Part shown: one piece after another, positions 39,736-45,293 of the stretch | Layout of the letters: the number at the start of each line of letters is the position of its first letter | How positions within the stretch are numbered: the first letter of the stretch is position 1 | Source: Gemmatimonadota bacterium | Lineage (GTDB): Bacteria; 4572-55; J002 | Length of the DNA: 50,755 bases | Direction of reading: 5' to 3' | NCBI GenBank assembly: GCA_003697105.1 | Contig: RFFQ01000102.1 | Coordinates: forward strand, 1 to 50,755 | Program-made: the position numbers and the translations under genes | Notes under the pieces: generated by a model | The model's database searches: none | What the model saw: only the letters and a program-made list of their open reading frames with translations | What the model was told of the DNA's origin: nothing

Positions 39736-41049
39736 CTATTGGTATTGCCGGATTACGTCGTAAATCACATTTGTTCCGAATTCAATTGATTTTACCGGTA
39801 CGCGCTCATTGGCGGCGTGGATCATCTGCAACGGATTCATGTCCGGTGGGAGATTCAGCGGCAGATAGCCATAGGTCTGGATGCCCAATTTGGCAAAATG
39901 ACGACCATCTGTCACCGCCGGCATAAGATAGGGAATGGGTGTACCATCTGGATCCGCCGCTTTGAGAACAGAAGCAAGTAGATCGAATTTATCCATGTTC
40001 ATCGGGGTCGGTACCGGCTCGTAATGCAAAATTTCCAATTGACCGGTGTTGCCGATGATTTGCCGGACTTCGGTGACCATGTCATCCGCTGTAAAGCCGG
40101 GCAAGAGCCGCCCATCCATTTGCAAGGTGACTTCGCTGGGGATCACATTGATTTTTGTCCCGCCAGAAACAATCGTCGGGTTGACCACATTCCGTATCAT
40201 GGACTCAAAAAAGCGTCCTTGGCTACCGAATCCCTCTAAGGTTTGGAAGCTCATCGTGGGGTCTGCTATCTGCTCAAAAATAGCGTTCATGGGTTCGGGT
40301 AGATGGTGGGCGATGGTTTCCAACATCTGTTTGACTACCAAATTGATATGGATGGGCAACGGGTATTGGTCTAACTGTTTTAGGATATATCCTAACTGCG
40401 CCATTACGCCGCCTCGTAGCGGGACTGCGCCATGCCCCGACCCGCCGTGAATGGTCAATTTTAGTTGGCATAACTGCTTTTCTGCCACTTGAATCAGATA
40501 AAATTTGTGTTGCCCGATGTAAATCGGGAAGCCGCCAAATTCGCCGATGGCGTATTTTATTCCTTCAAAGTATTCGGGATACTCTTCCACCAGATATTTG
40601 GCACCGTGCGTACCGTGAGCTTCTTCGTCGCTGAGGGCGCAAAAAATCAGATCACCTGCCGGTTGAATTCCTTCGGCTTTGGCACGCATGAATGCCGCCA
40701 ACATCATTGCTACGCCACCCTTCATGTCGAGTGTGCCTCGTCCCCACAGGGTTTTATCAATAATCAGTCCTTCAAAGGCCGGGTAATCCCACATTTGGTC
40801 ATGGGTGGGGACGACGTCCACATGTCCGTAAAGCAGGAGCGGAGGTGCGTTTCCGCGTCCTTTTAACCGGCTGATGAGATTGGGGCGTTCCGGTTGTTCA
40901 CCCAACAAGATGGTCTCCATGCCCACACCGCGAATCAATTGTTCGATATAGTGGATGCACTCCCGTTCATTCCCAGGTGGATTGGTGGTGTCAAACCGGA
41001 TCAATTTTTGAAGCAACTCAACAGGTCGCTGATAGATGGTCGTATCCAT
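39736..41049 (-). CDS. M20-family metallopeptidase (ArgE/DapE/carboxypeptidase type)
   Basis: A 437-aa zinc amidohydrolase. Metal and catalytic residues are seen: H76 and D78 in GHVDVVP, bridging D108 in GRGTLDMKGG, general base E142 and ligand E143 in LSDEEAHG, and the dimerisation-domain histidine in GGSGHGAVP. The C-terminal ligand histidine is likely in TDGRHFAK. There is no signal peptide, so it acts in the cytoplasm on an N-acyl amino acid or peptide; the substrate is unknown. AGAGG precedes the ATG. It follows the LpxH-like gene by 24 nt. Confidence 0.88.
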   Translation of the reverse strand: MDTTIYQRPVELLQKLIRFDTTNPPGNERECIHYIEQLIRGVGMETILLGEQPERPNLISRLKGRGNAPPLLLYGHVDVVPTHDQMWDYPAFEGLIIDKTLWGRGTLDMKGGVAMMLAAFMRAKAEGIQPAGDLIFCALSDEEAHGTHGAKYLVEEYPEYFEGIKYAIGEFGGFPIYIGQHKFYLIQVAEKQLCQLKLTIHGGSGHGAVPLRGGVMAQLGYILKQLDQYPLPIHINLVVKQMLETIAHHLPEPMNAIFEQIADPTMSFQTLEGFGSQGRFFESMIRNVVNPTIVSGGTKINVIPSEVTLQMDGRLLPGFTADDMVTEVRQIIGNTGQLEILHYEPVPTPMNMDKFDLLASVLKAADPDGTPIPYLMPAVTDGRHFAKLGIQTYGYLPLNLPPDMNPLQMIHAANERVPVKSIEFGTNVIYDVIRQYQ

Positions 41050-41073: not shown

Positions 41074-41802
41074 TTATCCCTCAAAGGTGTGGAGGGAAAA
41101 TCCCGCTGGGGAGAGTGTGGCGTAGGTAAATTGGTGAATCCAATCCCCCGTGTTGATGTACCATCCGTCCAGAATGGGGGTAATTTCCGGTTTATGGCGA
41201 TGTCCCATAATCACCGCCCGGCAACCTTCACCGATGCGTTCCGCGGCAAACTCGTAATAATCCTGATCGTCCAATATCTGTTGTTTAGAGGTGGTATAAA
41301 ACCGGCTGGTATGGGACGTTTTTTTAGCGATTCGGAACGCAAGGTCTGGGTGCAATAGCCGGAATAATTTGATATTAATTGGGTTGCGTAATACCCGCTT
41401 CAAAAAGCGATAGCCCCGATCCCGCTTTAAAATACCATCCCCGTGATGGAGGTAAATCCGTTGCCCAAAATGGGTTACGATGGCTTCATCCGGGTAAAAC
41501 ACAATCGGGGTTTCCTCCGCTAAAAATTGACCCGCCCAAAAATCATGGTTGCCGGCAAAAAAAGCTGTGGGAACCACCTTCGCGAGCTGTTCCAAGCGGC
41601 AAATTAACCGGAAATGCTGGCGCGGCATCACGTAAGTATAATTATACCAAAAATCGAACAGATCGCCCATGATGTAAACTGCACCGGCATGATCGTATAA
41701 ATGATCCAGAAAGCGGAACAGTTTGGCAGTGCGCTCTTTTTCCGTTTCGGAATCTGCATTACCCAGATGTACATCAGCGAAAAAATAGACCGGTTTTTCC
41801 AT
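41074..41802 (-). CDS. LpxH-like UDP-2,3-diacylglucosamine diphosphatase
   Basis: A 242-aa metallophosphoesterase resembling LpxH, which cleaves UDP-2,3-diacylglucosamine to lipid X in lipid A synthesis. The metal-binding motifs are all there: ADVHLG (D10, H12), GDLFDFW, GNHDFW, HHGDG and GHRHKP, and the family's NTGDW near the C-terminus. ATG at 41802 is chosen over a TTG at 41820 because it starts directly at MEKPVYFFADVHLG and sits 4 nt after the preceding stop. Other lpx genes are absent, so a related phosphoesterase role remains possible. Confidence 0.85.
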   Translation of the reverse strand: MEKPVYFFADVHLGNADSETEKERTAKLFRFLDHLYDHAGAVYIMGDLFDFWYNYTYVMPRQHFRLICRLEQLAKVVPTAFFAGNHDFWAGQFLAEETPIVFYPDEAIVTHFGQRIYLHHGDGILKRDRGYRFLKRVLRNPINIKLFRLLHPDLAFRIAKKTSHTSRFYTTSKQQILDDQDYYEFAAERIGEGCRAVIMGHRHKPEITPILDGWYINTGDWIHQFTYATLSPAGFSLHTFEG

Positions 41803-41806
41803 CACG

Positions 41807-42829
41807 TCATTCCACCACAAGCACTACTTTGCCGGTAGATTTGCCACTTCGCAGATGATCCACCGCCTGCGGCGCCGCGGTAAACGGGAATGACTGCCCA
41901 ATGAACGGTGGCTCTAATTCCAAGCGGTCTAATGCGTCGATCATCTCCTTGAATAAATTGACCTGATCATACAACCAAATCAGATTAAATGCCATTACCG
42001 ATTTGTTATCACCTGCCATTTTCATGGGATCGTACAACGGACGGCGCAGGTATTTTAGTGCTAGCCGGAGCGGGTTCGGGCGATCACCGTGGGGCGTAAA
42101 TTCTGCGGACCCATAGACCACCAACCGGCTCATGGGAGAAAGGAGCTTATACGTATCCTTTTGCACGTGCCCCCCAATGGCATCCAGTGCGAGGTCTAGG
42201 CGTTCCCCGTTGAGAATCGATTTTACCTGTTCGACCCAATTCGGGGTGCGCACCACGACCTGATTGAATCCCATCGTTTTGAGGCGGTCTATTTTTGCCG
42301 GATTTCCCACCGTGCCGAGAGGGTTCGCTCCCAGTTTTTGGCAGATGCGCATTGCCTGCAGTCCGACCCCACCAGCGGCACTGTGAATCAGCACATTTTG
42401 CCCCGGGCGCACATCCCCCAGTGGCTTGAGGGCATAATAGGCGGTGAGGGTTTGCACCGGATACGCCGCGCCTTGCTCAAAGCTCCAGCCTTCCGGCAGG
42501 GGGAGGCAATATGCCGGTTTAATATCGATCACGCTGGCATAGCCGCCGAAGCGCGTCACACCCATCACTGCGCTCCCAAATTTTACATCTTCCACGGCAT
42601 CCCCGGTGCAGATGACCGTGCCGGCAAATTCCAAACCGGGGATAAAATCCGTTTTCGGTGCGGCGGCATACAGCCCAATAATACCGAATATATCCGCGAA
42701 ATTCAACCCGACTGCCCGCACCTGCACCCGCACGTGATCGGGCTTCAGGGCGGGTAACGCTTCCGATTGCAATTGCAAATCGCTAAAGGACTTTGCGCGG
42801 GCGGTCTTCCATACTTGACGATGACTCAT
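41807..42829 (-). CDS. MDR-family quinone/alcohol oxidoreductase
   Basis: A 340-aa medium-chain dehydrogenase/reductase of the quinone oxidoreductase (VAT1/QOR) branch. The N-terminal GroES-like part has VRAVGLNFADIFGIIGLY and PGLEFAGTV; the NAD(P)-binding motif is HSAAGGVGLQAM (about 135-146). Structural and catalytic zinc cysteines are not evident, fitting a zinc-free reductase. ATG at 42829 overlaps the stop of the methyltransferase as ATGA; the frame extends upstream to 43027 but only inside that gene. The overlap chain with the methyltransferase and glycosyltransferase suggests it reduces a shared product. Confidence 0.9.
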   Translation of the reverse strand: MSHRQVWKTARAKSFSDLQLQSEALPALKPDHVRVQVRAVGLNFADIFGIIGLYAAAPKTDFIPGLEFAGTVICTGDAVEDVKFGSAVMGVTRFGGYASVIDIKPAYCLPLPEGWSFEQGAAYPVQTLTAYYALKPLGDVRPGQNVLIHSAAGGVGLQAMRICQKLGANPLGTVGNPAKIDRLKTMGFNQVVVRTPNWVEQVKSILNGERLDLALDAIGGHVQKDTYKLLSPMSRLVVYGSAEFTPHGDRPNPLRLALKYLRRPLYDPMKMAGDNKSVMAFNLIWLYDQVNLFKEMIDALDRLELEPPFIGQSFPFTAAPQAVDHLRSGKSTGKVVLVVE

Positions 42830-43623
42830 TGGCGTTCCCTGTAGGCGAGTAGGTCTTGATGCCCTACGATTAGGCTTAATTCCTGATGTTCCATTTGGTG
42901 TTTCCGTACCCGGCGCCATGTTTGGAGGCGATTCTGCTGTCCGGGGGGGCAGATTTCCTGCACGGCTAGACTGATCCCCGTGACGAGGGCGGTGAGCATC
43001 GGGGTATCTGCCGGGGTGATCTGCCAATCACTATCGCCGGTGTGGACGGTAAATCCCTTGTTTTTCAATATCTGGCAAACCGTGGGCACTGCACGTGCCC
43101 CCAGCGCGATGCCCAAGCCTTTGTCCTGTTGCATGTGGCGGTGAAACATTACCCGAATCCACTCGTCCAGCGGATGGGCAGGTTGCCATTGTTGCCGCCC
43201 ATCGTAGGTGAGGGTGAAGAAGAAGAGGGTGTTATTGTCACCGGTTGCCCCAACCAGCGCCGCCACCCATTCTGCCGAGACCAAATCCAGCAGCGCCGAT
43301 CCCGTAATCAGATCGACCGGATATAGCTTACGTAAATTTTCGAGATGTGTCAACTCCCATTGGTAAAATGTGCCGGACACCCCGAGTTCTTGAGCGTGCT
43401 GCAGCAGATCGGCGTCATGATCGATAAGTATCCATTGCGACGCCCGCTCCATTCGGGGTTGTAAATAGCGATAGTTTGAGCCTAAACCACATCCCAAGTC
43501 CATGATTCGGAGGGGTGACCGTTCCGGCAAGCGGGCGATCATCTGCTGGGTTAATGGGATTGAGCGGGCGGCGTGATCGAACGGCTCACGGCGGCGGAGC
43601 CACGCGGCATCAAACTGTGCCAT
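42826..43623 (-). CDS. Class I SAM-dependent methyltransferase
   Basis: A 265-aa methyltransferase. Motif I is DLGCGLGSNY (42-51), followed by LIDHD (acidic end of strand 2) and LITGSALLDLVS in the motif III-V region. Its N-terminus WLRRREPFDHAARS is distinctive. ATG at 43623 has GAGG 6 nt upstream and overlaps the glycosyltransferase stop by 14 nt; an ATG 7 codons earlier is less well placed. The methyl acceptor is unknown; the context of a QueD-like protein and glycosyltransferase points to a small-molecule product. Confidence 0.88.
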   Translation of the reverse strand: MAQFDAAWLRRREPFDHAARSIPLTQQMIARLPERSPLRIMDLGCGLGSNYRYLQPRMERASQWILIDHDADLLQHAQELGVSGTFYQWELTHLENLRKLYPVDLITGSALLDLVSAEWVAALVGATGDNNTLFFFTLTYDGRQQWQPAHPLDEWIRVMFHRHMQQDKGLGIALGARAVPTVCQILKNKGFTVHTGDSDWQITPADTPMLTALVTGISLAVQEICPPGQQNRLQTWRRVRKHQMEHQELSLIVGHQDLLAYRERQ

Positions 43624-44668
43624 AAACCGCCTCAATAAAGGCATTTGTGCTCTGTTGCCACGTGGGGAGCTGCGGGCGCACCTTTTGGCTTAAATGTGCC
43701 AACCGGCGGCGATACTCCGGCTGATCCAGCACCAGCCGCAGTGCCTCTGCCAAGGCTTCCACATCACCGGGGGGAACAAGCACTGCCGCGCCCCGCGTGG
43801 TGAAGGGAATCGCGCCACCGGTGGTACTGACCACCGGTAAACCGGCACTGATCGCCTCGGCAAGTGCCATTCCATACCCTTCGTAGAGCGAGGGAAAGAC
43901 AAACAGGTCGCTCTGGCGGTAAATCCCCCTCAATTTAGCCGGGGAAACCGCACCGGTCAGGTGGATTCGGTGGGATAACCCCTGTTTTTTGATCTGGGTG
44001 CGTAACCGCTCAACCGTTTGCGGTTCCATTGTCAGGGAACCGGCGGCGGTGAAGTGCCAATCGTACGCTTTTAACCGGGCAAGGGCATCCACCAGCACGG
44101 AGTAGCCTTTCCGGTACAGTACATTGGCAACACAGAGCAGGTGCACGGATTGGGAGCGGGACCCCCGCGCCAACCGTTGTGTATTGGTGCCGGGTAAAAC
44201 GGTTGTCACCGGTAAATCCTCCAACTGCCAGAATTGCAGTAATAGGCGCGTAAATGGGCTGGTAACAATCAGTTGATCCATCAATCGAAAGGCAGCTTGT
44301 TCCGCTTGCCGCAACCGGGCTTGCTCCGCCGCGTTGAATTCCGGTTCTTCGCTGTGGGGATGGTGAATCAAGCCGGTAAAATGCAATCGTTCTTTTTCCG
44401 GGCGGATCACCTCCGCGGCGCCTGCCAGCATCAGCCCATCTATAACGACGAGCGAGCCGTCCGGGATGTACCAAAATGCCCGGGCGAATGCCGCTTTATC
44501 TTCCGCCCGCGGGCTGGGAAATGTGCCCGGAACTTCATGTACTTCCACATAAATGCCCCGCCGCCGGATGCCATCGATGATCTGCTTGTCATACAGCGTA
44601 CCACCGGTAAGGCTCTCCAGAGAACCCGGTACTATAAAATGGAGGGGTCGATCATATTTGATTTTCAT
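43610..44668 (-). CDS. GT4-family glycosyltransferase
   Basis: A 352-aa retaining GT-B glycosyltransferase. The C-terminal nucleotide-sugar domain has the E-x7-E pair E263 and E271 in [10 protein letters not shown], preceded by FPSLY, with [15 protein letters not shown] around residue 190. The N-terminal domain contains the GG loop (LTGGTLYD). No membrane segment. ATG at 44668 is used because [15 protein letters not shown] starts the first strand; it overlaps the queD-like stop by 17 nt. The acceptor is unknown; a pterin-like acceptor is possible given the gene before it. Confidence 0.88.
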
Positions 44669-45029
44669 AGGATGCCCAGGCAATGTGCGATTCGTGCAAT
44701 GTGACTTTTAACCTGCCATTAAATTGGGGCTTGACCCGTTCGCCGAGCCGCCGGAAAATCTCTTTTGCCAAAAATTCGGTGGTGGTGTTGGTGCCGGCAA
44801 ATTCCGGCAGGTTGTCCAGATTTTGGTAGTTGAGCGGTTGCAAAACGGCTTTTAGCTGTTGCTGTGCCCAGCCAATATCAACCACCAAGCCGTGTTTATC
44901 CAGTTCCACCGCGCTAAATTCCACATCAACAATGTAGGTCGCACCGTGCATCTGTTGGGCGGGTCCGAAAATCTCGCCCTTAAAACTGTGGGCAATCATC
45001 AGGTGATCCCGTACGCCAAGGGTGTACAT
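44652..45029 (-). CDS. Divergent 6-pyruvoyl/6-carboxytetrahydropterin synthase-like protein
   Basis: A 125-aa T-fold protein of the QueD/PTPS family. Compared with classical members it keeps H14 (IAHSF), H28 (MHGATY), the GLVVDIG strand and E113 (LHESHI). It lacks the catalytic Cys (A24), the third zinc histidine (A30 in HGAT where HGHN is normal) and the histidine of the LDH motif (LNYQNL). It probably does not carry out the QueD or PTPS reaction in the usual way. I believe close relatives with the same substitutions sit beside glycosyltransferase, methyltransferase and MDR genes in some proteobacteria, from memory and unverified. AAGGAG lies 9 nt before the ATG. Confidence 0.82.
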
Positions 45030-45062: not shown

Positions 45063-45293
45063 CTAGCCTTCTTCTTCATGCTTCAAAAACAACTCCGGGA
45101 CAACGGGTAACCCGCACCACTGGGCAATCCGGTTGTAGTTTTTAGCGATGTCCTGCGCGTAGCCCACACCATCCTCTACTTTTTGGATGGCTTTCCCGAT
45201 ACGGGTGCTGGTATCCCCCAGTTTCTTCACAAATTTACTGACCGCGCGTTTTAACTCGTCAAAAGATTGCCGGATCGTAGCGGCAACATCAAT
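45063..45293 (-). CDS. Small hypothetical protein with non-standard start
   Basis: An open frame of 76 codons that reads like a real protein: a helical, Lys-rich segment (TIRQSFDELKRAVSKFVKKLG) followed by IAKNYNRIAQWCGLPVVPELF. It fills most of the 272-nt gap between GGT and the queD-like gene, same strand. No ATG, GTG or TTG exists at the natural N-terminus; the frame continues upstream into GGT. It would have to begin at ATT (45293) or, shortened to 55 aa, at GTG (45230). There is no visible ribosome-binding site. The function is unknown; it may be a decayed gene. Confidence 0.45.
   Translation of the reverse strand: MDVAATIRQSFDELKRAVSKFVKKLGDTSTRIGKAIQKVEDGVGYAQDIAKNYNRIAQWCGLPVVPELFLKHEEEG

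Follow-up and report, generated by a model that had tools for sequence, protein, structure and literature searches.

A conserved gene cassette around an SCO6650-family QueD-like protein in a Gemmatimonadota genome

The window analysed here comprises positions 1-50,755 of contig RFFQ01000102.1 (assembly GCA_003697105.1, 50,755 nucleotides) from a Gemmatimonadota bacterium, and its subject is a cassette of four genes that run from 45029 to 41807 on the minus strand and encode a QueD-like protein with an altered active site, a glycosyltransferase (GT), a methyltransferase (MT) and an oxidoreductase. Successive genes overlap by 17, 14 and 4 nt, as the initial annotation had reported. That annotation also assigned all four genes to one pathway, and this is supported for the first three, which are conserved together in two phyla, whereas the oxidoreductase at 41807-42829 is not conserved with them, so that the four genes become three conserved genes and a local addition. 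The window holds a compact, partly rearranged copy of a real, conserved and widespread pathway that is itself uncharacterised. The genes of the cassette are:

44652..45029, minus strand: QueD-like T-fold protein of the SCO6650 / PDB 3d7j family; ATG start; assigned by phmmer to 3d7j, Pfam PTPS and a residue table
43610..44668, minus strand: GT4-family (GT-B) glycosyltransferase; ATG at 44668, 17-nt overlap with the queD-like gene
42826..43623, minus strand: class I S-adenosylmethionine (SAM) methyltransferase; ATG at 43623, 14-nt overlap with the GT gene
41807..42829, minus strand: PIG3-type NAD(P)H:quinone reductase-like medium-chain oxidoreductase; ATGA, 4-nt overlap with the MT gene

The QueD-like protein and its two partners

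The QueD-like protein matches SCO6650 (PDB 3d7j) over its full length (residues 1-123, 152 bits, E 8.1e-44, phmmer), and this is its sole strong relative of known structure; true PTPS structures are found only at E ~0.001 with the same program. It matches the Pfam PTPS family at 87 bits, and against the QueD equivalog TIGR03367 it scores 42.1 bits, below the curated cut-off of 89.25. We aligned it with 82 relatives and with a further 13 PTPS matches from unrelated genomes, residues being numbered here and below on E. coli QueD and RibA. The position of the catalytic Cys is occupied by Ala, as is that of the third zinc-ligand His (the second His of HGH), and the Asp-His pair of PTPS is replaced by Asn-Tyr, while the first two zinc-ligand His residues are kept, as is the pterin-anchor Glu. 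Neither the two changes to Ala nor the kept Glu vary in the 82/82 relatives, so that this is a stable subfamily and not a product of decay; 9 of the 13 other PTPS proteins carry Cys at the catalytic position. SCO6650 itself reportedly contains no zinc and has no PTPS activity, and the title of the 3d7j entry, 'uncharacterized protein', gives the solved structure no named function.

The QueD/PTPS-I, PTPS-II and PTPS-III subfamilies of COG0720 are marked by the motifs CxxxHGH, CxxxxxHGH and ExxHGH, respectively (PMC5041015). The QueD-like protein belongs to the same T-fold family and has the pterin-anchor Glu in common with them, but it lacks all of these signatures and reads GPAQQMHGA in their place. 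It could nonetheless be argued that the protein supplies 6-carboxytetrahydropterin for ordinary queuosine synthesis, given that it is the sole PTPS-family protein in the window's genome, in which no second one was found. We regard this as very improbable: the CxxxHGH motif is absent, the equivalog score is 42 against a cut-off of 89, the neighbours of the gene in relatives are not queuosine genes, and a search of the genome for queuosine partners, which covered QueC, gave only one weak, partial match (25 bits, 59/210 positions, just over the cut-off). An ordinary queuosine role, which the initial annotation had named as the outcome that would overturn its proposal, is thus disfavoured by the family-wide loss of catalytic and zinc residues as well as by the poor QueC match. 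Judged from its sequence, the 'QueD' of the window is a member of the SCO6650 family and not a queuosine enzyme. Automatic annotation would name proteins of this type QueD or pterin synthases, a label contradicted by the loss of their active-site residues.

The GT is a member of Pfam Glycos_transf_1 (109 bits, 2.8e-31), and its profile lies nearest, among PDB entries, to MshA, to enzymes of the PimB type and to the Tll1590 protein of a cyanobacterium, a result that is not decisive for the substrate. The MT scores 26.7 against Pfam Methyltransf_25, slightly under the cut-off of 27; its confidently predicted structure (AlphaFold 2, pLDDT 96) finds class I SAM methyltransferases as fold matches in the PDB, neighbours too broad to name a substrate.

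Recurrence of the trio in other bacteria

A contig scan gave at least 80 loci with QueD-like proteins about 56-64% identical to that of the window, from a family that is larger still, and the neighbours counted here are genes within 8 kb of the queD-like gene in the 80 loci listed. These counts are lower bounds, because contig ends cut some flanks, and they are not independent, because nearly half of the loci are from Streptomyces. The queD-like, GT and MT genes occur in the same order and on the same strand in 73 of the 80, across Actinobacteria and Proteobacteria, and no fewer than six separate lineages have the trio. A GT is present in 76 loci and an MT in 73; the GT of the window is 34-41% identical to those directly following the queD-like gene, and its MT 30-37% identical to those following the GT. 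The remaining neighbours include a BchC-like dehydrogenase directly upstream of the queD-like gene (79/80), a CDP-alcohol phosphatidyltransferase (CDP-OH_P, 68/80), a flippase-like LPG_synthase_TM protein (60/80), GTP cyclohydrolase II (GCHII, 56/80), a creatininase-family hydrolase (54/80) and a RibD_C reductase (36/80). Linked GTP cyclohydrolase and RibD-type genes, which the initial annotation had proposed to look for, are therefore a regular part of these neighbourhoods.

Thirty-six of the loci belong to Streptomyces and one other actinobacterium, 15 to Halomonadaceae, two to Myxococcota and one to Bacteroidota; the others are from Granulosicoccus, Thauera, other Gammaproteobacteria, Alphaproteobacteria and unspecified Proteobacteria. 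Included in the Halomonadaceae is a contig (L059) that groups with Halomonas and bears a Halomonas-like copy of the cluster, although it is filed under a metagenome-assembled genome of a Natrialbaceae archaeon; it is probably mis-binned. The oldest part of the cluster may be the QueD-like protein, the dehydrogenase and the phosphatidyltransferase, since the Myxococcota and Bacteroidota loci have all three but no recognisable GT or MT. GT and MT form a single open reading frame in six loci of Halomonadaceae/Oleiphilaceae (L036, L056, L060, L068, L070 and L081), and apparently in L074 too.

These patterns bear on whether the overlaps in the window are fortuitous, with the QueD-like protein a degenerate leftover and the GT and MT ordinary genes of the cell envelope. 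The lost catalytic residues would fit such an account, as would the long branch on which the window falls in the phylogeny described below and the lack of conservation of the oxidoreductase and of an LpxH-like gene that follows it. We nevertheless find it improbable, as the same altered active site is invariant in 82 proteins and so does not look like decay, and as the trio recurs in order across two phyla, GT-MT fusions included. That most of the 80 loci repeat both order and strand argues that the grouping of the trio is not due to chance, and the concern that homologs of the cassette genes might never co-occur elsewhere falls away for these three.

Among 386 genomes surveyed, most of them the single representative of a family, a QueD-like protein of this kind was detected at E <= 1e-20 in just three, including the window's genome, which marks it as an accessory trait. 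A FastTree phylogeny of concatenated QueD-like, GT and MT sequences places the window inside the group of Proteobacteria, where it has a long branch and a poorly supported nearest neighbour (0.43); it is possible, from this placement, that the trio was acquired by transfer from Proteobacteria. We found no published study of the SCO6650-type cluster in the open-licence literature, although absence from that part of the literature is weak evidence.

Cyclohydrolase chemistry and a candidate pathway

The GCHII proteins of the clusters fall into two types at the column of the catalytic Tyr105 of E. coli RibA (KIRAY). Met occupies this column in 33/33 copies from Streptomyces clusters, and Tyr in 21 proteobacterial cluster copies and in the Bacteroidota copy; two Streptomyces-type genomes also have an unlinked GCHII, with Tyr. 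The Met type is that of SCO6655, which reportedly stops at the formylated pyrimidine (Spoonamore 2006, cited in PMC3509567). In Streptomyces clusters the Met-type GCHII is accompanied by a gene of the creatininase family. A protein of this family has been proven to deformylate the GCHII intermediate in Sinorhizobium, and the same formyl group is removed in this way in Brucella (PMC9478397). The Streptomyces clusters resemble systems of SCO6655-type GCHII and BrbF/ArfB deformylases (PMC9478397) in this pairing, with the cluster protein as a putative deformylase; in contrast to such systems, no creatininase was found in the window's genome, and its GCHII is of the Tyr type. We infer that Met-type GCHII plus formamidase, on the one hand, and Tyr-type GCHII, on the other, converge on 2,5-diamino-6-ribosylamino-4(3H)-pyrimidinone 5'-phosphate.

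The gene neighbourhoods in other bacteria suggest a pathway in which a precursor of riboflavin is converted into a methylated compound that carries a sugar. In the scheme that we propose, GCHII would form 2,5-diamino-6-ribosylaminopyrimidinone phosphate, in Streptomyces by way of a formylated intermediate at which the Met-type enzyme would stop and which the neighbouring creatininase-family formamidase would then deformylate. The RibD_C protein may reduce the pyrimidine phosphate. The QueD-like protein, with its incomplete zinc site, would bind the heterocycle via the pterin-anchor Glu and either carry out chemistry other than that of PTPS or serve as a scaffold; the BchC-like dehydrogenase would oxidise a side-chain alcohol, the GT4 enzyme add a sugar and the MT a methyl group. 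In bacteria that have the phosphatidyltransferase and the flippase-like protein, the product may also become attached to a lipid or be transported across the membrane. The recurrence of the trio, together with its linkage to GCHII and RibD_C in relatives, supports an undescribed pathway from the GCHII product, and we give about an even chance to the trio being the core enzymes of a conserved accessory pathway that starts from this product or a related pterin-like compound. More tentatively, and with the odds against it, the QueD-like protein may be a T-fold enzyme with an incomplete zinc site that catalyses a novel reaction on a pyrimidine of the riboflavin pathway; the product of the cluster, shared by at least four bacterial phyla, would then be a pyrimidine or pterin not described before, glycosylated, methylated and possibly linked to a lipid.

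Several observations weigh against the pathway as proposed here. Just three of the conserved cluster genes sit together in the window. A search of the genome gave no clear flippase orthologue, a flippase-like protein on contig C49 being rejected as such at only about 21-24% identity, and the lack of a creatininase in the genome has been noted above. Matches to GCHII were found on contigs C124 and C105, of which C124 alone is intact; we considered the C124 protein as a pathway-specific enzyme and rejected this, since it carries the Tyr of ordinary GCHII and since the one same-class genome compared has its counterpart but no QueD-like protein, while the C105 match has a degenerate GCHII half; the C124 protein is therefore not assignable to the pathway of the cassette. 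Outside the window's genome, GCHII lies beyond the flanks of most Alphaproteobacteria loci, and the cluster creatininase scores 122 bits against MftE, 90 against creatininase and 27 against ArfB, all below cut-off.

The initial annotation had suggested a possibly pterin-derived product, akin to the pterin glycosides of cyanobacteria and green sulfur bacteria. On this reading the PTPS-like protein would act on a GTP cyclohydrolase I product, and glycosylation and methylation would follow. Such a product would accord with a T-fold protein that keeps the pterin-anchor Glu in 82/82 relatives, with the adjacent GT and MT, and with a FolE2/MptA-type cyclohydrolase gene that stands beside a RibD_C reductase gene on contig C97 of the window's genome. 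If it were correct, the GT would resemble pteridine glycosyltransferases (Chlorobium tepidum CtPGT, PMC5683033, and cyanobacterial ones) in glycosylating a GTP-derived heterocycle; unlike those systems, the genes linked to the QueD-like protein point to the GCHII branch. The PTPS catalytic Cys, one zinc ligand and the Asp-His pair are gone, and the cyclohydrolase linked in relatives is of the riboflavin type, yielding a diaminopyrimidine and not a pterin. For this last reason the pterin glycoside is less favoured, and with a lipid-type transferase and a flippase-like protein linked as well, we consider it unlikely.

The latter two genes raise the possibility of a membrane lipid with a pyrimidine head group, in which CDP-OH_P joins a ribityl or ribosyl pyrimidine to phosphatidyl and the product is glycosylated, methylated and flipped. 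This would account for the frequency of CDP-OH_P (68/80) and LPG_synthase_TM (60/80), for the Myxococcota loci that retain the QueD-like protein, dehydrogenase and CDP-OH_P without GT or MT, for the CDP-OH_P orthologue kept in the window's genome, and for the proximity of the GT profile to inositol and phosphatidylinositol glycosyltransferases. Against this, GT4 similarity is broad, and most Alphaproteobacteria loci have no CDP-OH_P in their flanks. To our knowledge no lipid of this kind has been described, and we think its formation here rather doubtful. The conserved neighbourhood provides a concrete pathway hypothesis for the SCO6650 family, and Streptomyces, Halomonas and Chromohalobacter are tractable hosts in which a novel natural product derived from GTP, perhaps a membrane lipid of a new type, could come to light.

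Local additions and dispersed genes

The Streptomyces clusters that correspond to SCO6650 of Streptomyces coelicolor share the order queD-like, GT, MT with the window. The Streptomyces clusters also unite the dehydrogenase, CDP-OH_P, LPG_synthase_TM, Met-type GCHII and creatininase, whereas in the window the trio is followed by the PIG3-type reductase. GCHII, CDP-OH_P, creatininase and flippase-like genes were all absent from the window genes around the cassette, and the gene upstream of the queD-like gene encodes a gamma-glutamyltransferase, not the BchC-like dehydrogenase. Between the gamma-glutamyltransferase gene and the queD-like gene, at 45063-45270 on the minus strand, lies an open frame of ~70 codons without a clear ATG that encodes IRQSFDELKRAVSKFVKKLGDTSTRIGKAIQKVEDGVGYAQDIAKNYNRIAQWCGLPVVPELFLKHEEEG and resembles a small protein or gene remnant. 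Downstream of the oxidoreductase lie two further genes:

41074..41801, minus strand: LpxH-like calcineurin phosphoesterase; start 5 nt past the oxidoreductase stop
39736..41049, minus strand: M20 peptidase; start 24 nt past the LpxH-like gene

With such short distances the transcript may extend past 41807, and the LpxH-like phosphoesterase probably shares the transcript of the cassette. The oxidoreductase matches Pfam ADH_N/ADH_zinc_N and, below cut-off, the PIG3-type family TIGR02824 (5.7e-52), and has no significant match to the conserved BchC-like dehydrogenase of the clusters. PIG3-like genes lie near just 4/80 loci and never at the cassette position. The LpxH-like gene (PRK05340, 9.2e-31, below cut-off) is absent from all 80. 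We infer that the PIG3-type reductase, and with it the product of the LpxH-like gene, either contributes a lineage-specific step or is a bystander.

Elsewhere in the genome, contig C185 carries an orthologue of the conserved BchC-like dehydrogenase, 53% identical to that of Chromohalobacter, and contig C77 an orthologue of the CDP-alcohol phosphatidyltransferase (47-50% identity). From these sequences the pathway appears to be present in dispersed form, and the GCHII of this genome is probably shared with riboflavin synthesis, the pathway drawing on the riboflavin pool. The C105 match is a RibBA-type protein adjoining ribH (L083, C105:15821-16309), with a degenerate GCHII half without zinc cysteines. 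On C97, at ~25545 (L105:258-2190), the FolE2/MptA-type gene directly precedes the RibD_C/archaeal-type pyrimidine reductase gene; identification of the latter with the cluster RibD_C was not supported, as it is about as distant from ordinary RibD. On C77 (16620-20072, L116) the phosphatidyltransferase orthologue follows a UbiA-like membrane transferase that, by eye, resembles decaprenyl-phosphate phosphoribosyltransferases. On C185 (L110:6760-9590) the BchC-like dehydrogenase gene overlaps the end of a radical SAM gene with, by eye, a methyltransferase-like C-terminal part.

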